The position numbers were made by a program, and so were the translations under genes. Below are positions 2,315 through 30,022 of a stretch of 64,000 bases of DNA, one piece after another. The notes under the pieces are model-generated. The model was not told where the DNA came from, searched no databases, and saw only the letters and a list, made by a program, of their open reading frames with translations. Position 1 is the stretch's first letter. Each line of letters begins with the position of its first letter. Origin of the DNA: Hyphomicrobium album (GTDB lineage Bacteria; Pseudomonadota; Alphaproteobacteria; Rhizobiales; Hyphomicrobiaceae); contig NZ_WMBQ01000001.1 of NCBI RefSeq assembly GCF_009708035.1, positions 1,240,001 to 1,304,000 of the forward strand, given 5' to 3'.

Positions 2315-3468
2315 TGGAGCTACTCCTCATCCTCACCTACACGGCGATATGCGTCGCCATTTTTAAGATCTTCCGGATTCCGGTGAACAAGTGGACGCTG
2401 CCGACTGCGGTCCTCGGCGGCATTGCCCTCATTGGCTTCATCCTTCTGGTGATGAACTACAACCACCCCTTCACGGACAATGCGCGCATCTACTTTGCGA
2501 CGACTCCAATTCTTGCTGACGTGAGAGGGCGCGTTATCGAGGTTCCCGTCGAGGCGAACCGTCCCCTGAAGAAGGGCGATGTGTTGTTCCGTGTCGATCC
2601 GGCGCCCTATCAGTTTGAAGTCGACAAGCGACGCGCAGCGCTCTCGGAAGCCGAGCAGAACGTAGCGCAGCTCAAGGCCGGCTTCGATTCCGCGCAGGCG
2701 GTCGTGGCCTCGGCCACAGCAGAACGCGATCGTGCGAAGGCCGCCTATGGACGTTTCAGCCAAGGCAACGAGAATGCGCGCGCTGCCGGGCGCGATCTGC
2801 CGTTTTCTGTGGCCGACGTAGAAAACAGGCGCGGAGTCTATCTCGCCGCAGAAGGCACGTTGCAGCAGGCGGAAGCCAAGGCGGAGCAGGCGCGCGTCAC
2901 CTATCAGTCCGAAATCGGCGGCGTTCATACCTCGGTGGCGAAGTTGCGCGCGGATTTGCGCGATGCCGAGTTCGACCTCGAGATGACGACCGTGCGCGCA
3001 CCGGGACCGGGGTTTGTTACGCAATTGGCGTTGCGACCCGGCATGTACGTTGTTCCTGCACCGCTTCGGCCGGTCATGGTGTTTGTGCACGAGGACGACC
3101 GCACGCTCGCCGCGGGTTTTCAGCAGAACGCTCTGCAGCGGGTGCGCCCGGGTGACGAGGCGGAGATTGCTTTTGATGCAGTTCCGGGACGGGTTTTTAA
3201 GGGGGAAGTGGTACGCGTCCTCGACGCCATCGCGCCGGGCCAATTTCAAGCGAGCGGCTCATTGCAAGACATGGGTGAACGGCTGCCCGGCGGCCGCGCG
3301 GTGGCGGTGATCGAGGTCCGACAGGACATGTCCGCCTACAACATCCCCGGTGGAGCTGCCGCCCAGGTCGCCCTCTATACCCCTTACTGGCATCACTTCG
3401 CGATTATCCGGCGGATCTTGCTGCGCATGCGGGGTTGGCAGAACTACATCTTCCTCGAAGGTCACTAG
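2314..3468 (+). CDS. HlyD/EmrA-type membrane fusion protein (YiaV/YibH type)
   Basis: This 384-residue protein has two N-terminal hydrophobic stretches. A periplasmic adaptor follows: a lipoyl-like half (V-R-G-R-V-I-E-V-P-V near residue 75), an alpha-helical coiled coil near residues 105-215, the second lipoyl half (T-V-R-A-P-G-P-G-F-V) and a beta-barrel. Its ATG overlaps the stop of the DUF3302 gene, so the two are probably translationally coupled. Such adaptors link an inner-membrane pump to an outer-membrane channel. No pump is encoded next to it, and the DUF3302 protein is the likely partner. Length matches the YiaV family. Confidence 0.9.
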   Translation: MELLLILTYTAICVAIFKIFRIPVNKWTLPTAVLGGIALIGFILLVMNYNHPFTDNARIYFATTPILADVRGRVIEVPVEANRPLKKGDVLFRVDPAPYQFEVDKRRAALSEAEQNVAQLKAGFDSAQAVVASATAERDRAKAAYGRFSQGNENARAAGRDLPFSVADVENRRGVYLAAEGTLQQAEAKAEQARVTYQSEIGGVHTSVAKLRADLRDAEFDLEMTTVRAPGPGFVTQLALRPGMYVVPAPLRPVMVFVHEDDRTLAAGFQQNALQRVRPGDEAEIAFDAVPGRVFKGEVVRVLDAIAPGQFQASGSLQDMGERLPGGRAVAVIEVRQDMSAYNIPGGAAAQVALYTPYWHHFAIIRRILLRMRGWQNYIFLEGH

Positions 3469-3479
3469 GAGCATCCGCT

Positions 3480-3791
3480 ATGTCTAGAAGTACGATCTGG
3501 GGTCTCATGGCGCTGCTGGCCGTCGGCGCGGGCAGCGGATCGGTAGCGGCGTTACCCTTCGGCGACCTCGCGACCGACGGACAGGTGATCTTGGTGGGAG
3601 AGACCTCGCCAAGTTCGCAGGCAGAGACCGCGACTCCCGACGAAGGTGGGCAGGAAAGGTCCCTTGCTACGCAGTCAATGGAGGCCTGCATGAATAGCTG
3701 GGATCCTGGAACTCACATGACGAAGGAAGCGTGGCGCACCTCGTGCGAACGCATCAAGCAAGAGCGCTTGCCCTACGTGCAGAAGCGGTAA
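3480..3791 (+). CDS. small exported protein of unknown function
   Basis: A 103-residue protein starts at an ATG 8 bp after an AGGAG ribosome site and 12 bp after the HlyD-like gene. It begins with a signal peptide (M-S-R-S-T-I-W-G-L-M, then a hydrophobic run ending near A-A-L-P). The mature part has two cysteines (E-A-C-M-N and T-S-C-E-R) that could form a disulfide in the periplasm. Position suggests it belongs to the DUF3302/HlyD operon. I do not recognise the family. Confidence 0.7.
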   Translation: MSRSTIWGLMALLAVGAGSGSVAALPFGDLATDGQVILVGETSPSSQAETATPDEGGQERSLATQSMEACMNSWDPGTHMTKEAWRTSCERIKQERLPYVQKR

Positions 3792-3840
3792 GACCGAGGA
3801 GCGCTAGCGTCGCCTCTCGCCCGGCGGAGGGTGTATCACC

Positions 3841-4041
3841 TTGCGGAAGTTGATCGGCGCGGGACTGGTGCTGGGTTGGGCCGTCTACCTGGGAACGACG
3901 GCCTACGTTGTGTGGCGCATACTGGCGGGCGATCCACCCTCGTTCCTTGCCAACTATAGCCTCGGGACGAACGCCGCCTGGGTCATGATCGGCTTCATGC
4001 TTTGGCTCGCCACAGAGTGGGTACGCGGCTTCCGCACTTGA
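3841..4041 (+). CDS. small two-helix membrane protein
   Basis: This 66-residue protein starts at TTG with GGAGG about 11 bp upstream. Hydrophobic helices lie near residues 5-28 and 43-60, separated by a polar loop, and the C-terminus is basic (W-V-R-G-F-R-T). It is the last gene before the island boundary at 4201 and may end the DUF3302/HlyD operon. No family recognised. Confidence 0.6.
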   Translation: MRKLIGAGLVLGWAVYLGTTAYVVWRILAGDPPSFLANYSLGTNAAWVMIGFMLWLATEWVRGFRT

Positions 4042-4200: not shown

Positions 4201-4219
4201 ATGGCGCCCCGTAGGGGAC
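4201..4219. other. att core, distal end of element A
   Basis: ATGGCGCCCCGTAGGGGAC is identical to the last bases of the tRNA-Glu(CTC) gene as read on the plus strand at 29946-29964. The match stops where the tRNA continues into its T-arm, so this is a duplicated crossover core and not a tRNA. AAGTACTT lies about 25 bp to its left; the core at 5614 also has it on that side. It marks the boundary with the original chromosome. Confidence 0.85.
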
Positions 4220-4276
4220 CCACAGTGGTCAAATAACCTGCTGCAATCTCTGTGTTTTCTACTCGCCCTCTGGGCT

Positions 4277-4298
4277 CTGTACCGTGCTTTGTACCGTG
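4277..4298. repeat. paired TGTACCGTG repeats, left inside end of element A
   Basis: Two copies of TGTACCGTG start at 4278 and 4290, exactly 12 bp apart and about 60 bp inside the 4201 core. The same pair with the same 12-bp step recurs at 5497 and 5509, at the other inside end of the element. This looks like arm-type binding sites for a tyrosine recombinase or its directionality factor. Confidence 0.6.
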
Positions 4299-4559
4299 CC
4301 TCGAACATGCGACAGCATGAGACGCGTTGAGACGCGCTGGCAAATCAGTTAGACGGATAGTTCGTCATCGTCGCGGACGTAAACTGCGATGCATTACGCC
4401 CTCGTCGACGCGATAGTTCGGCGCCACTAACCGCACTTTCGTTGGAAGCGAAATTCCAGCGCCACTACCCCGCTCTTCGGAGCGCCACTCCCATAGCTAG
4501 CAATACCGCGGTCACACCCAGCCTTAACCCGGCCTGGGCGCCTGGGCCTACCAAGGATC

Positions 4560-4652
4560 ATGTCCATGAAGGATGTGAAGGTAGTGCTCATAGTAGATGT
4601 GGCGAGGGTACTTATCGCGACGGCGATCCTCGTCGATCTGCTACTGAAGTGA
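4560..4652 (+). CDS. 30-residue single-helix membrane peptide
   Basis: A short frame starts at an ATG preceded by AAGGATC; a second ATG two codons on is an alternative start. After a charged start (M-S-M-K-D-V-K) the peptide is almost wholly hydrophobic (V-V-L-I-V-D-V-A-R-V-L-I-A-T-A-I-L-V-D-L-L-L-K). It could span a membrane, though Asp and Arg lie within the helix. A GC-rich hairpin (GCCCGGC with GCCGGGC) begins a few bases after the stop. Peptides this short can be chance frames; the ribosome site and following hairpin are the support. Confidence 0.4.
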   Translation: MSMKDVKVVLIVDVARVLIATAILVDLLLK

Positions 4653-4658
4653 AGAAGC

Positions 4659-4680
4659 GCCCGGCGGGAAACTGCCGGGC
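4659..4680 (+). other. GC-rich hairpin after the membrane peptide
   Basis: GCCCGGC and GCCGGGC form a 7-bp perfect stem around an 8-base loop, just after the stop of the 30-residue peptide. No clear T-tract follows, so it is more likely an mRNA-stabilising or attenuating stem than a full terminator. Confidence 0.4.
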
Positions 4681-4746
4681 GTCATCTCCTTGAAGCGTGA
4701 GGTACGCGTCCCTATCTCCAAAACGGCCAAACAAAAGGAGGTTCCT

Positions 4747-4818
4747 TTGAAACTCATTTTGAATGGCCCGGAAAACTCCATCAGTGCGGAGTTCACCGCC
4801 ACCCGGGGCAGCAGTTGA
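4747..4818 (+). CDS. 23-residue leader-like peptide with strong ribosome site
   Basis: A TTG-started frame (K-L-I-L-N-G-P-E-N-S-I-S-A-E-F-T) stops at 4818. An almost ideal Shine-Dalgarno, AAAAGGAGG, ends 5 bp before the TTG. The frame lies immediately upstream of the candidate structured RNA at about 4820-4991. That arrangement suits a leader peptide or a small product translated from the same transcript. It may be a chance frame; the ribosome site is its best support. Confidence 0.35.
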   Translation: MKLILNGPENSISAEFTATRGSS

Positions 4819-4819
4819 T

Positions 4820-4991
4820 AGGTAACTGCCAGTGGCTATAGGGCTTCGGCCCGGTGTTATCGCGGAGACGCAAGGCGTGGAGCTGGCCTACCAGTAATGC
4901 GATTAGACTATCAGCCATAGGGACGGACCGTCCTATCCCGACCGAGCCCTACACGAGAGACCCCAAGCTTCGGCTTGGGGTCTCTTTTTTT
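4820..4991 (+). ncRNA. candidate structured small RNA ending in an intrinsic terminator
   Basis: Several stems nest in one 85-base block. A closing stem pairs TGGCT-ATAG (4833-4841) with CTAT-C-AGCCA (4908-4917). Inside are a GGGC-TTCG-GCCC tetraloop hairpin (4841-4852) and a second stem ATCGC (4859) with GCGAT (4899). That stem encloses hairpins ACGC-AAG-GCGT (4868-4878) and CTGG-CCTA-CCAG (4883-4894). GGACG-GAC-CGTCC follows at 4921-4933, then a strong terminator (4957-4991). The terminator fixes the strand as plus. I recognise no known RNA family, and it lacks a tRNA T-arm. It lies inside the 1.4-kb att-flanked cassette. The transcript start is unknown. Confidence 0.5.
4957..4991 (+). terminator. 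Rho-independent terminator of the candidate RNA
   Basis: GAGACCCCAAGC and GCTTGGGGTCTC form a perfect 12-bp stem capped by a TTCG tetraloop and followed by seven T residues. This is one of the strongest terminators in the window. It follows no normal-sized gene, which argues for a small transcript ending here. Confidence 0.9.
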
Positions 4992-5117
4992 GGCGGCAGG
5001 TCAAGCCGCGGAGTGTTTCATGCGCGCAAGCCTTTGGACACGGAGCGTCTCGTGGACTTTCGATCGCGTTCGTCGACGGGCGCTAGCGAGCGCACCCGCT
5101 CGTAGTGCGCGACGGTA

Positions 5118-5156
5118 ATGTCGATTTCCGACACTGTCGTTGTCGGTGGTCGACAT
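5118..5156. repeat. long imperfect inverted repeat next to the sponge-like gene
   Basis: ATGTCGA pairs with TCGACAT and, after a 3-base internal loop, CCGACA pairs with TGTCGG around a 7-base loop. It sits directly after the stop of the 5158-5391 gene (minus strand). No T-run follows. It could be a transcript 3' end, a protein-binding site or part of a replication origin. Confidence 0.5.
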
Positions 5157-5157
5157 A

Positions 5158-5391
5158 TTATGCAGCAGTAGCGGCCTTGACGGCCCACATCGCCGCTTCC
5201 TCGTAGGAGGTTTGCGCGAGTGATGCGAGACGCGGATCTTTAGGCTTGAGAGCCTCGCAGAGGTCGATGAGCTCGGCGCTTTTCTGTTTGATCTCGCGGA
5301 CCTTGTCGGCGACGTCGCCGCCCCGCTCGGAGGTGGCCGGATTAAAGTTGATACGGACGCGCTGCTCTCCGACTGTTTCTGTTGGTGCCAT
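5158..5391 (-). CDS. Acb2/Tad1-like small helical-hairpin protein (candidate anti-CBASS/anti-Thoeris sponge)
   Basis: A 77-residue protein has an N-terminal basic patch (Q-R-V-R-I-N-F-N-P) and then two helices: V-A-D-K-V-R-E-I-K-Q-K-S-A-E-L-I-D-L and L-A-S-L-A-Q-T-S-Y-E-E-A-A-M-W-A-V-K-A. A K-D-P-R turn joins them. This pattern (a lysine-rich first helix, D-P-R, then a second helix ending M-W-A-V-K-A) is how I remember the Acb2/Tad1 hairpin family. Its phage members form oligomers that bind cyclic nucleotides and block CBASS or Thoeris signalling. The family call is from pattern memory only. It lies inside element A, between two att cores. Confidence 0.55.
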   Translation of the reverse strand: MAPTETVGEQRVRINFNPATSERGGDVADKVREIKQKSAELIDLCEALKPKDPRLASLAQTSYEEAAMWAVKAATAA

Positions 5392-5468
5392 AAGAATGCA
5401 TCTAGCTAATATTCAGCCATCATATCATCTGTGTACGGATTGTCGCGACGAGGGGCTGTGGAAAAGGT

Positions 5469-5517
5469 CACGGTACAGCCACCCTCAAAAAGGGTCTGTA
5501 CCGTCGAATGTACCGTG
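5469..5517. repeat. TGTACCGTG repeat cluster, right inside end of element A
   Basis: There is one inverted copy (CACGGTACAG at 5469-5478) and two direct copies (CTGTACCGT from 5496 and TGTACCGTG at 5509-5517). The direct pair has the same 12-bp step as the pair at 4278/4290. It lies about 100 bp inside the core at 5614. Arm-type recombinase sites at both inside ends are expected of an integrated element. Confidence 0.6.
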
Positions 5518-5613
5518 GTTTTATTTCTTCCACAGCCTTATCCACTTAAAAGTGGAGGCTCTGTGGAAAACTTAGCTAGCCGAAACAAGTACTTGAAAAA
5601 TAACTGTTAATTT

Positions 5614-5632
5614 TGGCGCCCCGTAGGGGACT
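5614..5632. other. att core shared by elements A and B
   Basis: TGGCGCCCCGTAGGGGACT is identical to 29947-29965, the 3' end of tRNA-Glu. It overlaps the 4201 core by 18 identical bases in the same orientation. It is the junction between the small cassette and the large island. Confidence 0.85.
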
Positions 5633-9605: not shown

Positions 9606-10625
9606 CTATTCGCCTTCCGCGGCCGATGTCTCGGGAATGTAGACTCTTCGCAAAGGAAGTAAGCCCTTATGGCGCGTGTCGAACTTCTCATAGTTTTCAA
9701 AAATGAGCTGAACGATCTCTTCGCCATCTATGACACGGAGATTGCTCTTGCTCCTTTCAAATCGCAGAGCTTCCGCTGAAAAGTCTCCGAGCGTAACGAA
9801 TAGGCCGTACTCGCCGGGGGCAAGTTTGCCAAAGAGCGCTGAGACGTCACGGTCCGAGACTGAGCCGTCACCGCTCTTGACCTGAACCTTAATGATAGGC
9901 GGTTCAATGCCGAGGTGGTCTTTGTGGGCGATGATGTCGACGCTGGGCTCATTCGTCCGGGCAAGCCGCGCGTGGTATCCCATGCATTCGAGTAGGTGCG
10001 CCACGAATCCTTCGAACGCGGTTCCCTTGAGGTCACGGGCGAGCTGCTTGAGGACGAAGTCCTTCGTCGTCTCTTCGATATCTTCTGCAACCCGCGCCAC
10101 GGTCAAGTCGTCAGCGGCGGAGACTACGGTCTCCGGTGCCTTGCCATCAACGAGCGCCCGGAATTCATCCGCAAAGTTTCGCACCTGGAACAAGCTGAGC
10201 GCAGAGCCAATCTCGTATAGGGCACCCTGGCTAAAATGCGTGCGCGGTGCCGACTTCAGCCACGTTACCTTGCGCCGGTTCGGATACCCGGCCGGCGCCC
10301 CAGTGTCATATTCATATTCGCCCTCAACGCGGCCGATATGAACTTGTCTGCTTTGCTTGGCAGGATAGATGACGAGGTCGCCTACCTTCATCTCGTGGAC
10401 AAAACGGAATGGCTGCCCGGCCGCCTGCGGTACGGCCCCGGGCTTGATGTCGGCATAAGTTGAAATGACCTTCGCCTTGAAGGCTTCTCTGTTTGCTCCG
10501 ATCGCCGAAAGATTGCCCAGGTCGGCCCAACCGATGGCGACACAGTTGCCGCGAAGAAAGAGCTCATCGGCGTCGCCGGTTCTGCCAGCGTGTATCCCCC
10601 AAAACACAGGATCGAGCCTAGACAT
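9606..10625 (-). CDS. Mrr-type restriction endonuclease with N-terminal EVE/PUA-like domain
   Basis: This 339-residue protein starts at the ATG at 10625 (M-S-R-L-D-P-V-F-W-G). The first 110 residues resemble the EVE/PUA-like domain that often recognises modified bases (C-V-A-I-G-W-A-D-L-G, V-G-D-L-V-I-Y-P-A). The C-terminal half is an Mrr catalytic domain: G-T-A-F-E-G-F-V-A-H-L-L-E with its Glu, then S-V-D-I-I-A (Asp near 230) and V-Q-V-K-S-G near 247. Such enzymes cut modified foreign DNA. It begins 32 bp after the Type ISP gene and is probably in its operon. Confidence 0.8.
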   Translation of the reverse strand: MSRLDPVFWGIHAGRTGDADELFLRGNCVAIGWADLGNLSAIGANREAFKAKVISTYADIKPGAVPQAAGQPFRFVHEMKVGDLVIYPAKQSRQVHIGRVEGEYEYDTGAPAGYPNRRKVTWLKSAPRTHFSQGALYEIGSALSLFQVRNFADEFRALVDGKAPETVVSAADDLTVARVAEDIEETTKDFVLKQLARDLKGTAFEGFVAHLLECMGYHARLARTNEPSVDIIAHKDHLGIEPPIIKVQVKSGDGSVSDRDVSALFGKLAPGEYGLFVTLGDFSAEALRFERSKSNLRVIDGEEIVQLIFENYEKFDTRHKGLLPLRRVYIPETSAAEGE

Positions 10626-10657
10626 GTCCGGCCTCTCAATTGTTGCGCTCAGCCGCG

Positions 10658-13600
10658 CTAGGTTGTCTGTGCTGCCGTTGCTTCCAATATCTCGAGCTTG
10701 GGTAGAGACCGGACAAGTTTCATGGTCTCCAAGCTGACGGTGATGACGCGCAAGAACAGCTCTAGAGGATATTTCGGGTTCTTCATGGTCTCGACGGCCC
10801 AATCGTTGGCGTCGTTCACGATGCCGCTATCCGCATCTGTCTTTACACCCTGGCGCTCCACCACCCAGTCCAGTGCGGGCTTGCCGTTCACGATGTAATC
10901 GTAGGCATCCAGCGGAATCTCGGTGACGGTGATCTTGTCGTTGTAGTGAAGCGTGGTGCGGTCCTTGTCCTTGCCGTAGCGCATTTTCACGACGCTATAA
11001 TCACCCGGCTTGCCGCCGCCGGCGACTTTGGCGGCGGCATAGATGGGCACGTTCTCATAGTTGATGTGAAGCTCAGCGAGCACGCGGCCGGCCTTGCTGA
11101 ATGCCCAGAAATCCGCAGCCATCTTCACGCGCGGGATTCGAGGCAGCTCCTTGCCAAGGTTGTCAGCGAAGCGCTCGCGGTAGTCTTCCGAATGCAGGAG
11201 GCCATAGACGTAATAGAACAAGTCCTCCTTGCTGATCTTATCGCGGGGATAGGCTTCCGCGAAGTGCGCCAGCCCCTCGTCCGTGATGGCGTCGCGGCGC
11301 GAGGGGGTTTTGGCTTTCTCTTCCCCCTCAGCCGCGGCAAACAGGTTGCCCTCCGCATCTGTGCCATCGCCTTCGGCCGCATCGTACAGGTAGAGGGGAA
11401 AATATTGCGAGCCCACCATATCGACCGCGTGAAGGCTAGGGACCCTGTTGGTGATCAAAACTGAGTAAGCACTGCGAGACTCAGAGGCAGATACGCCAAT
11501 GACAATGTTCTCAGCCTTTGCGTCAGGGAAAAAATAGGGCATCTGATACACCATCTCATTGAGACGGCGATTGAAGTACATCCATTGCTTGGTGAACGGA
11601 CGATACAGCCCGACGACGAGAGCTGATGCGTCAAATTCAAGGGCCTTGTCCTTCACGAGGTCCTGCTTTAGGGCGCGGGTCCAAGCTATCTTGGTTGGAT
11701 CGGCATCCACAAAATCGTCAACGATCTTGCGGCGTGCGGCGACATCTGGATAGGAGCGGACGAAGCGGCGCCGCTCGCCCGAAAACGCATCGATCAAACC
11801 CGAAATGTTCTCCTTGAGTTTAGATTTCGATCCGTTTAGGCACCAGGCATCGCGGTTCGTGACCACACCGAGCGAGAAGTTCTCAAATACCTTAGGCCCT
11901 TCACCCTTCTTGTTACCGGCGACGATGTGTGCCGAAAAACTATCGTCGCGCTGCTTGATCCAGTCGCCATGTCTATCTGGAGTGATTGTCTTCCAGAATT
12001 CCAGTGGCACTTGACTTAAGCTACGGCGCTCGTTGAGCAAATTGAGCTTCTGTTCGCGGCTGAGGTAGTCATCGACCTCGGCGAAGAAAATTTGGCCCTT
12101 CTTCAGGGCGAGAGGATTCTTGACAAGTATAGTGATGCAGATGCTGGCCGCACTTGCGAGACCAAAGATCTGTCCACCTTCGCGCTTTGCTCTCTCACCA
12201 GAAGTCTTTTGCCCTCTTAGGCCCTTAAGGTGAAACACGAAAATATTTGCGAACTCGTCTGCCAAACATTTTCTTAGTCCATCGGATGTCCTGGAATCCA
12301 AGAATCCTGCGTTCGTTACGAAACCTATCACTCCGCTGTTTCCGATGCGGTCACTGGCCCATCTAATGGCTCGTACGTAGCTGTCATAGAGGCCCTTGGA
12401 GAGAACAGCGCTCGATCTTGCGGCGTAGGTCGCAGCGATGCGTTCGTCGAGGTGCGCGTACTCGATGTTTTCGTTGTTGTCGTTCTCACTGCGTTGGCCA
12501 ACCGAATATGGCGGGTTGCTGATGATGACGCGGATGTCGAGCTTCTTCTGCAGCCTGCGGCGCTTGCTGTTGTCGACAAGAATGGCGTCGATCAAATCCT
12601 CCTTCTCGTACATCTGGAACGTGTCCGTGAGACAGATGCCTTCAAACGGCTTGTACACTCCGCCGACGATGTCGTGATAGGCAGCCTCGATGTTGATGGC
12701 GGCGATGTAGTAGGCCAGGAGAACGATCTCGTTGGCGTGCAGCTCGTTCGCGTACTTCTTCTTGATCTCGGCGGGACTCATCAGGCCCGATTGCAGCAGG
12801 CGCGTGATGAAGGTGCCGGTTCCCGTGAAGGGATCTATGATGTGAACGCCTTCGCTCCCCAGCGTCTGTCCGAATTCGGATTTAAGCACGTCGTTGACGC
12901 TGTGGACGATGAAGTCGACGACTTCGACCGGCGTGTACACGATGCCCAGTCGCTCGGTCATCTTCGGGAAGGCATTGCGGAAGAACTTGTCGTAAAGCTC
13001 AATGACGATCCGCTGCTTGCCTTGAGCGTTCTCGATGCCTGACGCTCGCATCTTCACGCTGTCGTAGAAGCGCTGGAGCGTGTCGGCTTCCTTGTCGAGG
13101 TGATGTTCATGCAAGAGGTCCAGCACGCTCTGCATGGCCTGCGACATGGGATTGTGGCTGGCGAAGCTGTAATCGCTGAACAGGGCCTCGAAGACGGGCT
13201 TGGTGATCAGGTGCTGAGCGAGCATTTCGACGATGTCGTCGTCACCGATGCTGGGGTTCAGGTCGTCGCGCAGCTCCTCGGCGAATTTGTCGAAGGCAGC
13301 CCGCTCAGCCTTGTTCTTCGGATTCTCAATAATGCCCTGGATGCGGTCGATGTGGGTTTGGGCGATCTTGGCGATGTCGGCGGCCCACTCTTCCCAGTGG
13401 AGCCGGTTCCCGCACTTCTGGACGACCTTGGCGTAGATGGCACGTTCCACCTCGCCGATTTCAAACTGCAGCTTGCCCTGTGCGTCTAACCCTACCTTCT
13501 TCGGCGCGGGGGTTCCGATGCCGAAGGTATTTTTACCGGCTGCGCCGGCGCTTCCCGACTTGCTCTGCTTGCGCTGAATCTTGTCGGTAACCGCGATGAC

Positions 13601-15595
13601 CTCCATTTTGCTGGTGTCCTTGCCGATCAAGTCGAGCTTGTTGATCATCGCGTCGAAGCGGTCGTCATGAGACCGCAGGGCCTGGAGAACCTGCCAGACG
13701 ACGCGGTACACTTGGTTGTTGCTCAGTGCTTCATGCGGCTCCATCCCTGCAGGGATGACGACCGGTAGGACAACATAGCCGCGTGTCTTGCCCGGCGCAT
13801 TCCGCATGACTCGGCCGACCGATTGCACCACGTCGACCTGCGAATTGCGCGGTGTCAGGAACACCACGGCATCAAGCGCGGGAACGTCAACGCCTTCGGA
13901 CAGGCACCGAACGTTGCTTAGGATTCGGCAGGTGTCTTCGCCGGGATCAGCCTTCAGCCAGGCGAGCTTCGTTTCCTTCTCGCTGGCATTCATGCTGCCA
14001 TCTACATGCGCGGCTTCGCATTTGAGGCGCATGCTGGGCTCAATCTCGACACCAGCCTCCAGCTCAGCTTTTTGATAGGCTTCCACAACCGATTGGAACA
14101 TCCCAGCAATGTTCTTGGAGCTGACCTTGTGGGTCTTTGCCCCCTTCTGTACCTCGATCACTTGGCAGAATGCGACGGCGCGGCGCATGGCGGCGGTGTC
14201 GCCTTCCAGGGGTGTCAGGTTCTGCTTGGAAAGGGCCTTCCAGCAGCCGATGATCTTGGCGGCGTCGTCAACCTTGATCTGGTTGTTGCCGTCCCTCAGC
14301 AGTTCCTGCAGCCGGCGGCTGACATGCTCTTCCTGAACCGCCAGCACGATCACTTTATAATCGACCAGCAGGCCGCGCTGCACCGCGTCGGAGAACGTCA
14401 GGACGTGAAGCTCTCTGCCGAAGAGAGATTCATCGTCCATCGAGCATAGCGCGACATTGTCTTTTTCGGCTGTCGCCTTGGCCGCGTCGCCATAGATGCG
14501 CGGCGTGGCCGTCATATAGATGCGCTTGTTGCCACGAATAGTCTTTTCATCGTGGACCATGATGAAGGCGCTTTCGTCCTCATCCTCGAAAGTTGCGCCC
14601 GTGGTGCGATGCGCCTCGTCGCAGATGATCAGATCGAAATCGGCAAGCTTGTGCTTCTTCTGCGCCTCACTGATCGTCGCAATTGAATGGTAGGTACTGA
14701 AGACGACGGACATGCTTTCGTCGTCGTGTCGGGAGGTCATCTCCTTGGCGAAGTTCTTGGCATTGGTCGTGGCGGGATACCGCAACTCGTGCACGAAGGT
14801 TTCAACGGTGTCGTCGTTCTTGTTCCGCTTCTTGCCGATGTCGGCGTCGGAGCAGACCGCGAAGCAGTGCAGCGGGACGGCCCCTTCTTGCGACCATTCG
14901 GTCAAAGTCTGCGAAAGAAGGTTGAGGCTGGGCACCAGGAACAGAACCCGGCCACCGGCCCCCGCAATCTTCTCCGCAATCTTCAGGCTGGTGAAGGTTT
15001 TGCCCGTACCGCATGCCATGATCAGCTTGCCGCGGTCCACGGAGGCTAATCCGTCTACGACAGCTTTCAGTGCCTTGGTCTGGTGCTCGCGCAGCTCCTT
15101 CTTGGATTTCAGGACCGGCTTGGATTTTGGCGCGTATTTCGACCAATCAATCCGGCTTTCCTCAAGCGCAGTAAGATCGATCTTGTGCACTGGCGGCTGC
15201 TGACCTGTAAGCGCCGCTTCCGCATGATCGCTCCAATGATCAGTCGTGCTTACGATGACGCGTTGAGTGAAGGGCTTCTTGCCGGAGGCAGTGAAGAAGC
15301 TATCGATGTCCGCCTTCTGCAGGCGGTATTCGGGGTCGAAGAGCTTGCACTGAATGGCATGGTACTCGCCGGTGCCGTGCGTCTGGGCGACAAGATCGAT
15401 GCCGGCGTCGCGCCCGTCGTGGCCTTGCGCGTGCGCCCAATCGGCATAGGGCCAAACCACGTCATAGAGATCCCGGTAACGGGGCTCATTCCGCAGGTAG
15501 CAGGTGATCAGCTCCTCGAAATACATTCCCTTCTCGCGCTCGGACTTGGCCGAAGCACGGAAATTCTCAAGGAGTGCGCCCAGCGCGCTTTCCAT
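10658..15595 (-). CDS. Type ISP single-polypeptide restriction-modification enzyme
   Basis: One 1645-residue chain has the LlaBIII-like order. An Mrr-like nuclease comes first (Glu near 28, A-G-I-D-L with Asp67, I-Q-C-K with Lys84). A superfamily 2 translocase follows: A-C-G-T-G-K-T at 194-200, D-E-A-H, T-A-T-P-R and Q-S-V-G-R-V-M-R. After a helical coupler comes an N6-adenine methyltransferase (D-P-F-T-G-T-G-T-F near 923, N-P-P-Y near 1027), then a target-recognition domain. All key motifs look intact, so it should methylate and cut. I chose the ATG at 15595 (M-E-S-A-L-G), which drops 29 unlikely residues. Type ISP enzymes cut between head-to-head sites after translocation. Confidence 0.9.
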   Translation of the reverse strand: MESALGALLENFRASAKSEREKGMYFEELITCYLRNEPRYRDLYDVVWPYADWAHAQGHDGRDAGIDLVAQTHGTGEYHAIQCKLFDPEYRLQKADIDSFFTASGKKPFTQRVIVSTTDHWSDHAEAALTGQQPPVHKIDLTALEESRIDWSKYAPKSKPVLKSKKELREHQTKALKAVVDGLASVDRGKLIMACGTGKTFTSLKIAEKIAGAGGRVLFLVPSLNLLSQTLTEWSQEGAVPLHCFAVCSDADIGKKRNKNDDTVETFVHELRYPATTNAKNFAKEMTSRHDDESMSVVFSTYHSIATISEAQKKHKLADFDLIICDEAHRTTGATFEDEDESAFIMVHDEKTIRGNKRIYMTATPRIYGDAAKATAEKDNVALCSMDDESLFGRELHVLTFSDAVQRGLLVDYKVIVLAVQEEHVSRRLQELLRDGNNQIKVDDAAKIIGCWKALSKQNLTPLEGDTAAMRRAVAFCQVIEVQKGAKTHKVSSKNIAGMFQSVVEAYQKAELEAGVEIEPSMRLKCEAAHVDGSMNASEKETKLAWLKADPGEDTCRILSNVRCLSEGVDVPALDAVVFLTPRNSQVDVVQSVGRVMRNAPGKTRGYVVLPVVIPAGMEPHEALSNNQVYRVVWQVLQALRSHDDRFDAMINKLDLIGKDTSKMEVIAVTDKIQRKQSKSGSAGAAGKNTFGIGTPAPKKVGLDAQGKLQFEIGEVERAIYAKVVQKCGNRLHWEEWAADIAKIAQTHIDRIQGIIENPKNKAERAAFDKFAEELRDDLNPSIGDDDIVEMLAQHLITKPVFEALFSDYSFASHNPMSQAMQSVLDLLHEHHLDKEADTLQRFYDSVKMRASGIENAQGKQRIVIELYDKFFRNAFPKMTERLGIVYTPVEVVDFIVHSVNDVLKSEFGQTLGSEGVHIIDPFTGTGTFITRLLQSGLMSPAEIKKKYANELHANEIVLLAYYIAAINIEAAYHDIVGGVYKPFEGICLTDTFQMYEKEDLIDAILVDNSKRRRLQKKLDIRVIISNPPYSVGQRSENDNNENIEYAHLDERIAATYAARSSAVLSKGLYDSYVRAIRWASDRIGNSGVIGFVTNAGFLDSRTSDGLRKCLADEFANIFVFHLKGLRGQKTSGERAKREGGQIFGLASAASICITILVKNPLALKKGQIFFAEVDDYLSREQKLNLLNERRSLSQVPLEFWKTITPDRHGDWIKQRDDSFSAHIVAGNKKGEGPKVFENFSLGVVTNRDAWCLNGSKSKLKENISGLIDAFSGERRRFVRSYPDVAARRKIVDDFVDADPTKIAWTRALKQDLVKDKALEFDASALVVGLYRPFTKQWMYFNRRLNEMVYQMPYFFPDAKAENIVIGVSASESRSAYSVLITNRVPSLHAVDMVGSQYFPLYLYDAAEGDGTDAEGNLFAAAEGEEKAKTPSRRDAITDEGLAHFAEAYPRDKISKEDLFYYVYGLLHSEDYRERFADNLGKELPRIPRVKMAADFWAFSKAGRVLAELHINYENVPIYAAAKVAGGGKPGDYSVVKMRYGKDKDRTTLHYNDKITVTEIPLDAYDYIVNGKPALDWVVERQGVKTDADSGIVNDANDWAVETMKNPKYPLELFLRVITVSLETMKLVRSLPKLEILEATAAQTT

Positions 15596-15797
15596 GGCAT
15601 CCCCCCGTTGCCGCCGGCAACCTAACGATCGGAATAGGCCTCTCGCTATGACCACCCGCTGTAGTCGAGCTCGGTTCAGCACGCAAGATCAACGCCGCCG
15701 ACGCGATTCCCGGACGCCCGCTGCGAGGGGATGTCGCGCACCGCGGCGTAGATCAATCGTTACGACTGTCAGGGCGTGACGAGAAGGAAATTTAGCA

Positions 15798-19612: not shown

Positions 19613-20371
19613 TCAGACAGGCGCCTGAGTAGCACGATCTGGCACTCTGGAAAGAAGGTCTTTCAAGTTGGCGTTGAGCTGATACTGCACGTCATGCTCC
19701 CTGGTAGACCAGAGCTTTGCAATTTGTGTAACCGCTGTACGGACATCGGTGGGCATTAGGGGCCTTTTGCCGTCCAGGGCAAAGGGTCCATCGGTTTCGG
19801 TCAGCAAGCGGTCCCGTGGCATTCGAGCCGCCAGCTGGCGGCCCTTCTCACTGCGTAGCATCGCCGGGCCGACCGAGAACCAGCACCCAAGTGCAATGGC
19901 AGCATCCAGTTCGACGCGCGTGCCTGAAAACCAGTGAAGTACAGCAGTTGACCCGCATCGATGCCGATGCAGAGACGAAATGACGGCCTCTGCGGCTCCG
20001 CGGCTGTGAATGGTGAAGATGTGCCCGCCTCCGCTTTGCGACGCGGATAGGACACGTTCGAACACCTTGAGCTGGATCTCCGCGTGCGGTCGATGGGCCG
20101 GGGAACCATCGAGCCCGATTTCGCCGACGTAACTTGCTTCGCCCAAAAGCGCCTCTAGCAACGGGACTTCGCTTGAGCGCTCATGCGCGAGCTGCGGATG
20201 CAATCCCAAGGCCGTGCGAACATATCGCCTGTTTTTTGCCAATGCCGACGTCTTGCGCCACGCCTTGGGTGTTGTCGTGACTGACAAAACGAACACGCCT
20301 GCCTTCTCGCACTCTGAAGCAACGGCCTCCGGGTCGTCAAAAAGGTCAAGATGACAGTGAAAGTCGATCAA
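19613..20371 (-). CDS. qatD: QatD: TatD-family nuclease of the Qat defence system
   Basis: A 252-residue metal-dependent hydrolase with all TatD ligands: D-F-H-C-H-L-D (His5, His7), V-G-E-I-G-L-D-G, F-T-I-H-S-R-G, L-H-W-F-S-G-T and T-E-T-D-G-P-F. It starts at TTG overlapping the qatC stop (TTGA). It is the fourth gene of the QatABCD order described by Gao and colleagues in 2020. Its substrate in defence is not established; TatD proteins are 3'-5' DNases. Confidence 0.9.
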   Translation of the reverse strand: MIDFHCHLDLFDDPEAVASECEKAGVFVLSVTTTPKAWRKTSALAKNRRYVRTALGLHPQLAHERSSEVPLLEALLGEASYVGEIGLDGSPAHRPHAEIQLKVFERVLSASQSGGGHIFTIHSRGAAEAVISSLHRHRCGSTAVLHWFSGTRVELDAAIALGCWFSVGPAMLRSEKGRQLAARMPRDRLLTETDGPFALDGKRPLMPTDVRTAVTQIAKLWSTREHDVQYQLNANLKDLLSRVPDRATQAPV

Positions 20372-21669
20372 ACTGCAAACCCCTCGCTCGTCAGATAGGC
20401 CCGCAACTCGCTCAGCCCGCGCGCAGCTACATCTATATAGGCTTTGCGTTCCACTGCTTCCGTCGGCAGAGGCCCTGCCTTCATCAGCTCTACTTCAAGA
20501 GGGCTTCCGCGTATCAGCGCCGCCTGAACCGCAACGAGATCGTCGCGCCCCTCCTCATCGTCCATGACGGCGCGGAGGTCCGGAAATTGATAGTCAGTAT
20601 CGTCGACAACAGCGGCGGCGTGTAGTGACGCACGGCGGATGAGGCATGGGACGCAGCGTCCACACTGTTGGTTTCGGCGCTTCCACTTTCCGCATGAAAC
20701 AGTTGAGGATGCGAATGCACGAAAATTGGGATCGTTCGCGTAGGGCAGCGCCATCTCCCCTTTCGTTCGGTGGCGATAAGGATTGACTATCTGTATCGGC
20801 ACGTGAAGGGCATCGAGCAGCGACTGAATGCTTTCAAGAAAATGTGGATGCGCGGTGCGGGTGCTGTGCGACCCCATCCGGCGAGGTGTTAGTGGCGGGT
20901 TCAACGCGATGAGCCCATTCTCGCAGACATAGAGCTCCGCCTTGGGTCCTCCGCGATACGCGGCCACCGCCTCGGCGGCTACAGTCCCAAGCGCCAGGAA
21001 CTGGAAGCTTCGCGTACGCATGCTGTCATCATCGGCGCCACTCCAGGTCGGATACGTATTCACAGAAACCCGCTGACAATGGGATGGCAGGAGCTGAGCG
21101 ACCTCATCCTGTTTCTGCGCATCTTTTGCGTAAGCATGGCTAATGAGGAGTGGCCGGTGACTCTTGGCCAAAAGGTCGAGCACTCCGATCGCGCTATCGA
21201 GCCCACCAGAGAAGAGTGAAACACAATCAACTTGGGACAGGTCGACAACACGCTGGCGACTCTTGATAAGGCTAACCGGTGGGGGCTGAACTCCATGCCC
21301 CGCAAACTCAAACTCCCACGTATCCGAGCTTAGGAACCGCAGCGCCGACTGCAGTTTCGGCTTCAGTGCGTTCCAAGGATCGGGATTTGCGAGAGGCAAC
21401 ACGATTTCGAAATCGCGGCTCCAGCCGCCGCGTGCGTCGGACCTTGGCACGAAGGTGTCGGCTGCTGTGACCGCCATAGCGATCGACATGAAGTCAATGG
21501 CAGCAGGGCTTGGTCTCAGCGTCAAACGGGATGCTTCGTCGAGTGCTTGCGCACCCACGCTTGCGGCATGCAAGAAAGGAGGGCTCGGCCCGTAGAGCCA
21601 GACGTGGATATTCCCATCCGGCTCCTCGGGGATGCTGTCCCGATTAACGTGAAAGATCAATCGGTTCAT
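20368..21669 (-). CDS. qatC: QatC: QueC-like protein of the Qat defence system
   Basis: The start is the ATG at 21669, overlapping the qatB stop as ATGA, giving 433 residues. An ATP-pyrophosphatase P-loop S-G-G-L-D-S lies at residues 154-159. A zinc-type cysteine set (S-C-G-K, Q-C-G-R-C-V-P-C) lies in the C-terminal third. QueC makes 7-cyano-7-deazaguanine, but QatC is much longer. It may modify a nucleobase or a protein; the reaction is unknown. Confidence 0.9.
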   Translation of the reverse strand: MNRLIFHVNRDSIPEEPDGNIHVWLYGPSPPFLHAASVGAQALDEASRLTLRPSPAAIDFMSIAMAVTAADTFVPRSDARGGWSRDFEIVLPLANPDPWNALKPKLQSALRFLSSDTWEFEFAGHGVQPPPVSLIKSRQRVVDLSQVDCVSLFSGGLDSAIGVLDLLAKSHRPLLISHAYAKDAQKQDEVAQLLPSHCQRVSVNTYPTWSGADDDSMRTRSFQFLALGTVAAEAVAAYRGGPKAELYVCENGLIALNPPLTPRRMGSHSTRTAHPHFLESIQSLLDALHVPIQIVNPYRHRTKGEMALPYANDPNFRAFASSTVSCGKWKRRNQQCGRCVPCLIRRASLHAAAVVDDTDYQFPDLRAVMDDEEGRDDLVAVQAALIRGSPLEVELMKAGPLPTEAVERKAYIDVAARGLSELRAYLTSEGFAV

Positions 21670-22427
21670 TGCAGGGTTTCCCACTCGCGCCAGACCTCAT
21701 CCATGGCTTGGCGCTCGAGCTTGCGAAACTCTTCGCGGTTGGCGTTTGCTAGTCCTTGCGCCAGGCGGGGCGAGAAGTGCTTGTCGACGACCACGCGGAT
21801 CAATTCCAGCAGATCGGCTTCGGTTTGCGTGGCGTGCTGCGCATCGGGCGCCTTGTTCCAAGCGTCTCCTGCTGTCGCCGTGATTTCCATGAACAGGATG
21901 CGGCTGAAAAACTCTACCATGATCTGAATGAGTGTGTCCGGCGTCAGGAGGGACGGATCGAAGACGCCTGCTTCAGGAAGCACTTCGGTTATCGCTTCTT
22001 GGATAGCGGCAGACACCTCGTCGGCGTCTGCACCTTCCGGCGCTAAAGCTCGCGCAATTTCCTGCGCAGCGACGTTGACAGGCTGTCCTTGCAATGTTGA
22101 GAGGTCGAGCCCGCCTGGAGCGAGCCCAGAGCCAAATTGCGCAAGATCACGTAGCGTATCGGCGAGCGCCGCACCGGAGCGGTAGGCGGGACCAAAGCGG
22201 CGCGGACCAACCGTACTGCCTTGCGTTGCGTCACGTGCGTATTTCCCGAGAGCGGAATTCAGCGCCCCTTTCCCACCTCCTGCAGCCGCACGGCCGAATT
22301 CGGTTCGGAAGCCGCGGAAACGCTGCCCCTCCGGTGATGGGAGCGGTTTGCCAGGCTCGTCGTCCACACCTGGCGGAACCAATGGCGATGTGGATTTGGG
22401 TCCTTTGCTTGATCCCGAGGTACCCAT
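21666..22427 (-). CDS. qatB: QatB: uncharacterised subunit of the Qat defence system
   Basis: A 253-residue protein with a flexible, Gly/Pro/Ser-rich start (M-G-T-S-G-S-S-K-G-P) and an Ala-rich helical body. QatB proteins share this start and lack catalytic motifs. The gene begins 4 bp after the qatA stop and overlaps qatC, so all four qat genes are tightly coupled. The disordered N-terminal tail could be the target of QatC modification, which is speculation. Confidence 0.85.
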   Translation of the reverse strand: MGTSGSSKGPKSTSPLVPPGVDDEPGKPLPSPEGQRFRGFRTEFGRAAAGGGKGALNSALGKYARDATQGSTVGPRRFGPAYRSGAALADTLRDLAQFGSGLAPGGLDLSTLQGQPVNVAAQEIARALAPEGADADEVSAAIQEAITEVLPEAGVFDPSLLTPDTLIQIMVEFFSRILFMEITATAGDAWNKAPDAQHATQTEADLLELIRVVVDKHFSPRLAQGLANANREEFRKLERQAMDEVWREWETLQ

Positions 22428-22431
22428 CTTG

Positions 22432-24201
22432 TCAGCTCCCGTACCAAGTCTCGTCCTTCAGCATCGTGCGCATCCAGGGTGGATGTTGAGGGACGGTTTG
22501 GATGAATCGGGAAAGGATTTTTGCGGCGTCGGGCGACGACCGGGAGAGCAAGACGGCGCCGCGCAGATCGGATCGCGTCTTTGACCAGTCTGGATTCTTG
22601 CGCAACTGGGCAACGATCCCCTCCATCACCATGATGTCCTGTCCCGCGGAAAGACCGGCGATGGCGTTCGCTGCGGCGCGCGAGGACAGTGTCGCTGTCC
22701 GCAATAGCTCGTCGATGGCATGGGTGACCTGTGGTGGGGTCGCGCTGGAAACAAAGCGGACAGGGACCGTCTCGCGAGCCAGATAGACCGCAGGCCGGAG
22801 GTCCACGTCGGCAAGCGTCGGTTCCAGGCGCACCCAATCGGCAACGAACGGCAAATGCTTTTGCCAGGCTTCTGGCAGTTTGCTCTTACCCTCCTCGACT
22901 GGCTCGCCCCTCTCGAAGGCGGGTAGGAACTCGATCTTGCCGCCCGGTGAAACACTGATCACCTCGTGCAGGGCTTCGGTGGCAACCGCGTCGGTGCAGC
23001 GCTCGAACAGCGCCAGCTTGGCGATGATCGCTTCGTCAAGGGGCATACGCCGCTTCTTGGCGATCGACGCGCGCATGCGGACGACATTCAGAAGCCGTTT
23101 GACGATCCGCGGATTGCCCTGCACGCGCGAAGCGTGCGCAAGGAGGGGCGCCATTCGGTTGGCCATCTCAAGGCTCTGACGGAGTGTGTCGTCGCCCTCG
23201 CGCCCAACGCTCTTCAATACGTCGTCGATCGTAAACGGCGCGCCATGCTTCCACGACTCGCGCAGCCGCTCGATGAGATAGCTCCGCAGTCTCTCACGAA
23301 GCTGTTCATCGGCAATGACATCGCGCGTAAGCAGTAGGAAGAGATAGGCGCGGACCTCCTGAACGCCGATGCGCGGCACTCGGACAGGTATCTGGATCAA
23401 TTTGTCCAGATAGTCCGTTACCTGCTTCTCGCCCGGATCTTTGAAATGCCGGGCGACGGCATGGCGGATCATGTCCTCATCGGCACCGATTACGAATGCC
23501 GTGCTCGGCATAAACAGGAAGAGGCGAACCGCTTCAAGCGTATGAATTGCGTTTTCTGGGAGGCAGCGATCGAGATTGTCGATGAAGACGACGAGCGTCT
23601 TACCAAGACCTGCCAGAACCTCGCCAAACTCACTTCGGAAAGCTGCGATCTCTTCGGGTGGGCCTTTTTCAGACACGCTGCCAACCAACCCGGACGCCTT
23701 CTCCTTGGCGTCCCCGGCTGCAGCCTTGATCGCTTCGTAATCTTCCTTGTCGGACGTACCCGCGACGACATCGCGAGCTCCCTCGAGGCCTCGGGTGATG
23801 AGCCCGAATGTGGGCAGGCCCATCGCGAGCGCACCACCTTCCAATAGGAGGCTGAGCGCCCGAAGCTTGTTGATCCGCCCAAAAAGGGACTTGGCTTTCT
23901 CGGCAAGGTCTGGCGGTGAGGCCTTGGTTAGTTCGCTGGCAATGACGGACATCAACGCCGCGCGCGCATCGTCAAAGTCCTGGTAGAGCCACGCGTCGAA
24001 GGTGATTACGAGATAGTTTTGCTCATGCTTTCCAAGTTCATTGGCGACGAGGCGGAGGGTGCTGGACTTGCCGACTCCCCAGCTCCCGAACACACCCAAA
24101 GATAGCGGCAGCAAATCCTTGCGCGCGATCATGTCGGCGATCAACTCGGCCACCTCGGAGTAGTTGAGAAAATCTAGGTCTGTATCCGTATCGGCCCACA
24201 T
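22432..24201 (-). CDS. qatA: QatA: KAP-family P-loop ATPase of the Qat defence system
   Basis: The start ATG at 24201 (M-W-A-D-T-D) follows AAAGGA, giving 589 residues. Walker A is G-V-F-G-S-W-G-V-G-K-S-S near residues 36-47. Walker B is V-V-F-I-D-N-L-D-R-C near residue 210. An Ala/Leu-rich hydrophobic insertion lies between them near residues 115-140, as in membrane-associated KAP NTPases. It is the first gene of the operon and the likely sensor or motor. Confidence 0.9.
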   Translation of the reverse strand: MWADTDTDLDFLNYSEVAELIADMIARKDLLPLSLGVFGSWGVGKSSTLRLVANELGKHEQNYLVITFDAWLYQDFDDARAALMSVIASELTKASPPDLAEKAKSLFGRINKLRALSLLLEGGALAMGLPTFGLITRGLEGARDVVAGTSDKEDYEAIKAAAGDAKEKASGLVGSVSEKGPPEEIAAFRSEFGEVLAGLGKTLVVFIDNLDRCLPENAIHTLEAVRLFLFMPSTAFVIGADEDMIRHAVARHFKDPGEKQVTDYLDKLIQIPVRVPRIGVQEVRAYLFLLLTRDVIADEQLRERLRSYLIERLRESWKHGAPFTIDDVLKSVGREGDDTLRQSLEMANRMAPLLAHASRVQGNPRIVKRLLNVVRMRASIAKKRRMPLDEAIIAKLALFERCTDAVATEALHEVISVSPGGKIEFLPAFERGEPVEEGKSKLPEAWQKHLPFVADWVRLEPTLADVDLRPAVYLARETVPVRFVSSATPPQVTHAIDELLRTATLSSRAAANAIAGLSAGQDIMVMEGIVAQLRKNPDWSKTRSDLRGAVLLSRSSPDAAKILSRFIQTVPQHPPWMRTMLKDETWYGS

Positions 24202-24539
24202 GGAAAATCCTTTGAATGCACCCGGCGCGCCGTGCAATTGTAAGAAGATGGATTTGCGCATTTGCAGTCGCAAGGCACAAGCGGAAAGCCAACGCTTCGG
24301 CTCGCGCTTGGCTTTTCAACAACTTATATTTGTTGAGCGCGGTCATCCGTTCTCAGCCATGTCTTGAGTTTGTGGGGCGGATGACCCCGACCCCTTTTGG
24401 GGCGTGCAGACGTGGCTGCCGCCAGCATGATAGGCCTACACTGAGTGGGCCGCGACTTCTGCATACCCAGCCCCTCGTCGGTGCGGCGCCGAACCTCTCA
24501 ACTCAATGGCCGCTCATCGCACATGACAGGAATAATTGA

Positions 24540-27897: not shown

Positions 27898-28155
27898 GTG
27901 ACCCGCCACGATAAGACTAGCGCCGTCCTGCCTGCCAGCATGCCATTACTGTTGTGCTCGCGGGTTCAAGCCGCGGCGCTGCTGAACATTGGCCCCTCGT
28001 CCTTTGACAAGCTCCGCAAGCAAAACAGGCTCTTGCGGCCGGTGATGATCGGGTCGCGAACGCTGTGGCCCTACCGAAATTTGGTGGCCTTCGTTGATGA
28101 TCTGATCGATGCTGGCGACGGCGCTGACGATCCATGGTCGGGCGCCGCGGCATGA
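27898..28155 (+). CDS. excisionase-like helix-turn-helix protein
   Basis: An 85-residue protein with a MerR/AlpA-like fold: A-A-A-L-L-N-I-G-P-S-S-F-D-K-L, then a wing with P-V-M-I-G-S-R-T-L-W-P-Y-R-N-L. Such proteins act as recombination directionality factors or activators of the adjacent integrase. The start is GTG at 27898 or ATG at 27940. Its stop overlaps the integrase ATG as ATGA, so the two are coupled. Confidence 0.7.
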   Translation: MTRHDKTSAVLPASMPLLLCSRVQAAALLNIGPSSFDKLRKQNRLLRPVMIGSRTLWPYRNLVAFVDDLIDAGDGADDPWSGAAA

Positions 28156-29946: not shown

Positions 29947-29965
29947 TGGCGCCCCGTAGGGGACT
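29947..29965. other. att core at the tRNA end of element B
   Basis: TGGCGCCCCGTAGGGGACT is both the 3' end of tRNA-Glu and the repeated core also found at 5614-5632 and, in overlapping form, at 4201-4219. All three copies are in the same orientation. Confidence 0.85.
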
Positions 29966-30022
29966 CGAACCCCTGTTCCCAACGTGAGAGGCTGGTGTCC
30001 TAGGCCACTAGACGAACGGGAC
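29947..30022 (-). tRNA. tRNA-Glu (anticodon CTC)
   Basis: A 76-base gene including the encoded CCA. The anticodon arm is CCAGC-CTCTCAC-GTTGG, giving anticodon CTC. The T-arm is intact (GGTTCGAGTCC) and the acceptor stem pairs GTCCCGT-type bases with ACGGGGC apart from weak positions. Its last 19 bases are the att core of the island, and integration has restored a full 3' end, so the gene should work. Confidence 0.95.

Follow-up and report, generated by a model that had tools for sequence, protein, structure and literature searches.

We analysed a stretch of 64,000 nucleotides from Hyphomicrobium album (NCBI RefSeq assembly GCF_009708035.1, contig NZ_WMBQ01000001.1, positions 1,240,001 to 1,304,000), referred to below as the window. 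It carries a small segment, cassette A (4202-5631), between 18-19-bp copies of the 3′ end of a tRNA-Glu(CTC) gene. The order at the locus is chromosome, core, cassette A, core, island B, and a last core that is the 3′ end of the intact tRNA-Glu(CTC) gene (29947-30022, minus strand). The distal core (4202-4219, minus strand), a copy of the tRNA-Glu 3′ end, joins A to the chromosome and shares 18 bp with the copy at 5614; the copy between A and island B (5614-5632, minus strand) shares 19 bp with the tRNA copy, and 4201 and 29946 also share 19 bp, all by exact identity. The 17-mer TGGCGCCCCGTAGGGGA occurs three times in the window (4202, 5614 and 29947), against an expectation of zero from shuffled sequences. 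Thus the two direct tRNA-Glu core copies claimed in the original prediction do bound 4201-5632. From core to core, A measures 1412 bp, and its G+C fraction is 0.562 as compared with 0.622 for the window.

Cassette A was expected to lack a recombinase, and this was borne out. Searches by tblastn with ten integrases gave no similarity at E < 0.3 in A, and a Pfam scan of eleven of its open reading frames (ORFs), which took in a minority of those under 42 amino acids, returned one family, Acb2, and no recombinase. Within that same scan, no AlpA, primase or capsid-hijacking gene was seen. No DNA-level relatives of A were found in phages or plasmids.

Short repeats lie just inside each core. On the left, 58 bp inside the core, is a two-site arm (4278-4298, plus strand) with the structure TGTACCGTG CTT TGTACCGTG, an exact pair with copies at 4278 and 4290. 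On the right, 96 bp inside the core, is a three-site arm (5469-5517) composed of an inverted TGTACCGTG (5469-5477, minus strand), TGTACCGTC at 5497 and TGTACCGTG at 5509. The original prediction described identical pairs with a 12-bp step just inside both ends. Pairs with that step are indeed present at both ends; the right one, TGTACCGTC/TGTACCGTG, differs from the left by one mismatch, and the inverted third site at 5469 had been missed.

The lone 9-mer TGTACCGTG is not rare: with up to one mismatch it occurs at 13 places in the window, against 6.8 expected. It is the paired arrangement, rather than the single 9-mer, that is special. With up to one mismatch the pair is found at two sites in the whole 3.9-Mb genome, both inside A. 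We also ran a detector for a double pair, that is, two occurrences of the same 9-mer pair (step 10-13) separated by 400-2500 bp. Its only two hits in 1.664 Mb of the H. album genome were A and one low-complexity stretch, so the pairs are not common there. It gave one hit each in two loci of other family genomes, G134 and G044, described below, and none in the 389,724 bases of 51 further family loci. Order-2 Markov simulations of A, of G134 and of G044, 500 runs apiece, produced no double pair.

Among 103 family genomes, the 21-bp pair with up to one mismatch occurred in three (two sites in the H. album genome, one in G006 and two in G134), and its reversed control gave two hits in one genome. 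A version with R closing each half was found in one of 397 genomes of the order, again that of H. album, while its reversed control gave seven hits in seven genomes. The exact R pair was present at 33 loci in contigs of 84,980 species, against about 30 expected by chance from our own arithmetic; apart from the two in Hyphomicrobium, we treated these loci as chance or as iterons, without proof. The site in G006 (C5, L007:8878-8898) is a two-site TGTACCGTG arm that stands alone, next to two ORFs with no Pfam match over the cut-off. It has no recognisable core and no second end and was not counted as an element; it is possibly a scar of another one. Two of the 33 loci have the pair, TGTACCGTA with a 12-bp step, close to a tRNA gene: it lies about 115 bp from a tRNA-Ser gene in a Campylobacteraceae metagenome-assembled genome (L059:6024-6246) and about 57 bp from a tRNA-Arg gene in a Flavobacteriales one (L080:1272-1423). 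These pairs are possibly integrase arms, possibly chance.

The cargo of A includes a gene for a 77-amino-acid protein (5158-5391, minus strand) that matches the Acb2/Tad1-hairpin family (PF24729, E 3.6e-14, 53.1 bits, cut-off 27), a model that spans both Acb2 and Tad1. The protein, predicted earlier to be sponge-like, is by its sequence a member of this family, of the sponge type that phages use against cyclic-oligonucleotide-based antiphage signalling systems (CBASS). Tad1, Tad2 and Acb2 are described as sponge-like phage proteins that inhibit abortive infection (PMC12043709, in part). No PDB chain gave a credible sequence match to the protein. In IMG/VR, 204 relatives were recovered by the patterns used, of which 80, at 55-74% identity, were kept. 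An alignment of 14 of the 80 with the proteins of A and G044 had 23 invariant columns. A phage collection yielded 142 records, all from Flavobacterium, the best at 42.7% identity (E 8e-6). Among the 397 order genomes, 21 of which belong to the family, only the copy in A was detected at E ≤ 1e-6.

The Acb2 domain occurred in eight of the 103 family genomes, in six of them over the cut-off. Among the seven loci besides A, only that of G044 lies between arm pairs; no tRNA gene and no double pair were seen in the 2-3 kb, with DNA partly inspected, around each of the others (G136, G140, G050, G003, G028 and G127). A looser 8-mer detector gave double-pair hits in 8 of the 80 viral loci bearing Acb2. 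Six of these share one hit, which in L169, the locus inspected, falls in Gly-rich coding DNA, and the other two, L148 and L166, were treated as chance with their DNA unread.

A stretch at 4725-4992 (plus strand) folds with a z-score of −4.59 and ends in an intrinsic terminator (4955-4986). Rfam gave nothing above threshold for A, the weak hits (E 0.18-7.9) being treated as chance, so this RNA stays a candidate despite its fold. The two tiny peptides also claimed for the cargo are ORFs only: a hydrophobic 30-amino-acid candidate (4560-4652, plus strand) with no Pfam match, and a 23-amino-acid candidate inside the RNA (4747-4818).

A search with the DNA of A against 100 relatives matched six genomes: its own, G044 (the Acb2 gene), G006 (the left arm), the congener G005 (the right arm), G031 and G041. 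The matches in G031 and G041 are short hairpin-like stretches (E 1e-4 and 7e-4).

The match in G005 is next to an integrase. A tRNA-Glu(CTC) gene (L008:9429-9504) is followed there by the arm and then by a gene for a 389-amino-acid P4-type integrase (L008:9664-10833) with Arm-DNA-bind_3 (PF13356), Phage_int_M and Phage_integrase domains. Counted from the tRNA side, A has ACGGTAC at 115 and 127 and an inverted site at 155, and G005 has ACGATAC at 132, ACGGTAC at 144 and an inverted site at 172. The order and spacing of the three-site arm (+12/+28) are thus common to both. In G005 the GTG taken as the integrase start in the ORF list lies within the inverted site; in A, tblastn found no integrase similarity beyond the inverted site. 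It had been suggested that other islands be searched for such pairs near an integrase, and G005 provides one, with the same three-site arm and the same tRNA target as A in an element that has its own integrase. The arm match likely identifies the family of the missing integrase as P4-type with Arm-DNA-bind_3. Besides the integrase, the G005 island encodes other proteins, an OLD-like TOPRIM ATPase among them; the far end of the island was not found.

Relatives of the G005 integrase (E ≤ 1e-30) were present in 52 of the 103 family genomes. In the 30 of these loci whose DNA was printed, TGTACCGT words stood just before the integrase only in G005, the others having other repeats where any were evident; arms of the type TGTACCGTR therefore belong to a narrow group of integrases. 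The next relative, in G010 (58% identity), is at a tRNA-Leu(CAG) gene. No cognate integrase was found in viral contigs by the patterns used.

That same tRNA-Leu(CAG) is the target of a second small element, in G134 (L015:7921-9146). Its 16-bp cores are 1210 bp apart, and its arms, just inside the duplicated tRNA ends, are those of A, with the three-site arm (+12/+27) on the tRNA side and the two-site arm at the far end. Core and cargo are different. The cargo is a 112-amino-acid ORF, the last 106 residues of which have a best Pfam E of 0.036, below the cut-off. Relatives of this protein occur in 11 of the 103 genomes, and none of the 11 loci, the element's own copy excluded, has a double pair or a tRNA gene. 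No trace of an integrase was found in the element by tblastn with the ten integrases, and none matched in two neighbouring stretches of 9.2 kb (holding the element) and 11.8 kb. Rfam returned the tRNA and weak hits only. The end of contig C48 of G134 (L015) and the start of C63 (L085) overlap by 55 bp starting exactly at the tRNA-Leu core. This may be an assembly-graph branch of a mixed filled and empty site, or equally a strain mixture or a repeat, and we gave it no weight.

A third element, in G044, is intergenic (L009:8420-9341), with 12-bp cores, ACTTTCTCCGCT, 910 bp apart. Its arm pairs, ATTTTGCAGTCATTTTGCAGTC and ATATTGCAGTGATTTTGCAGTC, are built on another motif, TTTTGCAGTC, with an 11-bp step. 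Its cargo is an Acb2 protein 77% identical to that of A and a structured RNA with a terminator (z −5.8). A gene for a CxxCxxCC protein lies on one side and a pentapeptide-repeat gene on the other. The aligned flanks are 205, 254 and 256 bp apart in three other genomes of the genus, as compared with 1183 bp in G044; because the site is short in all three, the G044 segment reads as an insertion. A single core-like ACTTTCTCCGTTATGGT is present at the site in G028. No integrase trace was detected in the element or in the 18 kb around it with the ten integrases, the best E across the three elements being 0.3. Elsewhere the TTTTGCAGTC pair gave one hit with one mismatch, in G100, beside a transposase-like ORF, and this was rejected.

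Island B (5633-29946), the neighbour of A, is a separate unit. As predicted, the repeat at its ends is a different one: its arms carry four copies of TGTCAAACCT, other than those of A, and it has its own integrase (28134-29228), with a Phage_integrase domain and no Arm-DNA-bind_3 hit. It also carries the QatABCD defence set (19613-24273), each component of which is matched by PADLOC with an E of at most 2e-63. The island holds in addition a PDC-S02 candidate (9606-10802) and a type IIG restriction enzyme-methyltransferase (10658-15682). Since A is distal to the tRNA gene, it is presumably the older unit. On the left of A, the chromosomal flank (2779-4036) matches contig C10 of G005 at 66-75%, beside a core, and the tRNA side of the locus matches the tRNA contig of G005 at 79%. 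From these flank matches, A is an addition at a common accretion site. Continuity of A with a larger ancestral element, which would have spoken against a separate cassette, was not seen: in G005, a locus broken between contigs, the flank stands beside the core and other DNA follows. The tRNA-Glu core is present there in five copies spread over contigs (C10:289299, C10:306746, C36:54291, C43:44487 and C59:6648), which form a large accretion array; two of the five are preceded by near-identical DNA. Contig C16 of G003 also terminates at a tRNA-Glu core.

The layout of A is therefore real and not unique: the same design is seen at several independent sites (A, G134 and G044, 0.9-1.4 kb). For A the original prediction offered two alternatives, a deletion remnant or a satellite dependent on an integrase that is absent. 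Dependence on an absent integrase fits the finding of the three-site arm at the G005 integrase, whose only relative at E ≤ 1e-30 in the genome of H. album is 31% identical, and two more elements of similar design without an integrase tip the balance towards movement. With moderate confidence we propose that A is a non-autonomous integrative mini-element, a minimal attP plus cargo, that is mobilised in trans and hitches on tyrosine integrases much as miniature inverted-repeat transposable elements (MITEs) do on transposases. The attP would comprise about 240 bp, that is, the core, the two-site arm 58 bp from it on one side and the three-site arm 96 bp from it on the other, and the cargo about 1.2 kb, that is, the Acb2 gene, the candidate structured RNA and perhaps the tiny peptides. 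When a helper is present in the cell, its P4-type integrase, like that of G005 and with Arm-DNA-bind_3, would bind the TGTACCGTR arms, release A as a circle of 1412 bp and integrate this circle into the 3′ end of a tRNA-Glu(CTC) gene. Acb2 might soak up signal nucleotides of CBASS or a similar system and so favour the invading helper. At this locus A would have been inserted first; island B would have followed, its own integrase placing it on the tRNA side of A.

Several observations weigh against this proposal. We infer binding, excision, transfer and the function of the cargo from sequence. The elements found are three only, their cargo differs, and the RNA stretch of G134 is unexceptional (z −0.15). 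The genome of H. album lacks a close helper integrase (31% identity at best); at E ≤ 1e-30, G134 has no relative of the G005 integrase and G044 a single one, at 30% identity and with other upstream repeats. Thus none of the mini-elements was found in company with its presumed helper. The ACGGTAC words upstream of the G010 integrase have another spacing, so the tie between that integrase and the G134 target is weak. For G044, the core is 12 bp long and not from a tRNA gene, a cognate integrase was not found, and two of the genomes with a short gap, G055 and G138, had none of the core strings tried. Moreover, an element that lost its integrase once inserted would end up looking the same.

This last possibility is the main rival, and we consider it unlikely though to be taken seriously. 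A larger P4-type island or prophage at tRNA-Glu would have lost its integrase and most of its cargo, leaving both ends and Acb2, as in cis-mobilizable elements (CIMEs). CIMEs have lost their integration and transfer genes, keep attL and attR and often have a more recent island next to them in tandem (PMC5704250, in part). A keeps cores and arms at both ends, has no integration or transfer genes and is in such a tandem, and the integrase-bearing island of G005, with the same arm and tRNA, could resemble its ancestor. Yet G005 gave no match to the DNA of A beyond the right arm, no integrase trace is left in any of the three elements, and none was matched in the flanks examined of G134 and G044. 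Random deletion would not favour three similarly small elements that keep a pair of arms at each end. For A alone, a larger island may have decayed; for the three together this is less likely, and decay before dispersal is also possible. A minimal, integrase-dependent hitcher thus remains the best-supported mechanism.

Another alternative, which we regard as improbable, is that A is a single-gene tRNA cassette formed by recombination at the cores only, by the host Xer system or an arm-independent integrase, with the arms incidental. The genome of H. album has two more tRNA-flanked segments in which no integrase ORF was seen. A copy of the tRNA-Val(TAC) 3′ end, with a 21-bp exact core, lies 909 bp downstream of that gene (L241:17705-18688; G000:C1:777705-778688), the segment holding one long ORF with DUF4253 (PF14062, E 3e-34); a 31-bp copy of the tRNA-Ser(GCT) 3′ end lies 1603 bp downstream (L270:1166-2862; G000:C1:1041166-1042862), the segment encoding a 428-amino-acid response regulator plus HWE histidine kinase. 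These segments lack arm pairs, however, and the right arm of A is that of an integrase in both spacing and sequence. Least credible of all is a reading in which the TGTACCGTG repeats serve a phage origin or a small replicon, as iterons or regulator sites, with the cores an older, unrelated island scar: exact pairs do occur in six viral contigs, several as iteron-like arrays of three or more copies, and CTGTGGAAAA and TTATCCAC words, which we take to resemble DnaA boxes, adjoin the right arm of A, but A has pairs and one inverted site only and no arrays, the arms of G134 sit just inside duplicated tRNA ends, and in G005 the three-site arm lies between the tRNA core and the integrase start.

A wider proposal is more tentative, and we rate it slightly below an even chance: that bacteria harbour a class of 0.9-1.4-kb "integrase MITEs", attP-sized, with paired arms and roughly a single gene of cargo (for a membrane or anti-CBASS protein). 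These would exploit P4-type integrases in trans as parasites, with arm motifs and targets differing from lineage to lineage, and would spread phage anti-CBASS genes with no recombinase of their own. Integrase-less units this small would probably be missed by island finders that are based on integrases. If mobilised in trans, they would be to tyrosine integrases what MITEs are to transposases, and would offer anti-defence genes, acb2 among them, an inexpensive vehicle. As natural minimal attP sites, the mini-elements could serve for mapping the arm sites that a P4-type integrase needs. What is new here is the third inverted site, the arm match in G005, the elements of G134 and G044 and the Acb2/Tad1 identity.

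How does A compare with known systems? Islander describes tRNA-gene islands made by tyrosine integrases (in the part of the source consulted). In the open-licence literature, by the titles and abstract beginnings among the matches listed, there was no att-flanked mini-element moved in trans by a tyrosine integrase; related work includes HE-PICI (PMC10111431) and PMC9745183, each in part. The 15 Dehalococcoides ssrA islands without integration modules are like A in lacking an integrase and sharing an att site, but unlike A they are all at ssrA, belong to a serine-recombinase system, carry rdhA genes and are possible CIMEs (PMC3146451, in part). CIMEs themselves share with A the retained attL and attR and the tandem island at one tRNA gene. 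They are decayed integrative and conjugative or integrative and mobilizable elements carried by accretion (PMC5704250, in part), whereas the design of A recurs at three sites with different targets; the G044 site is short in three other congeners and has no integrase match in the 18 kb around it.

The phage satellites, that is, P4, phage-inducible chromosomal islands (PICI), capsid-forming PICI (cf-PICI), PICI-like elements (PLE) and phage-inducible chromosomal minimalist islands (PICMI), are like A att-bounded and site-specific and, as proposed for A, helper-dependent (PMC10803314, in part). Their excision needs an integrase encoded by the satellite, which A lacks, and P4, PICI, cf-PICI and PLE average 9.5-18 kb as compared with 1.4 kb for A (same source). 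The G005 island resembles A in its tRNA-Glu(CTC) target and three-site arm and differs in having the integrase and further genes. There is a parallel in principle with MITEs and with CALINs (clusters of attC sites lacking integrases), which supply recombination sites only and rely on an enzyme encoded by a complete element (PMC11389934, in part). The part of that review of hitchers consulted names no arm-plus-core class dependent on tyrosine integrases. MITEs and CALINs use transposase ends or attC sites, whereas A uses the arm-plus-core att sites of tyrosine integrases and, to judge from these sequences, probably moves by borrowing the integrase of another element.

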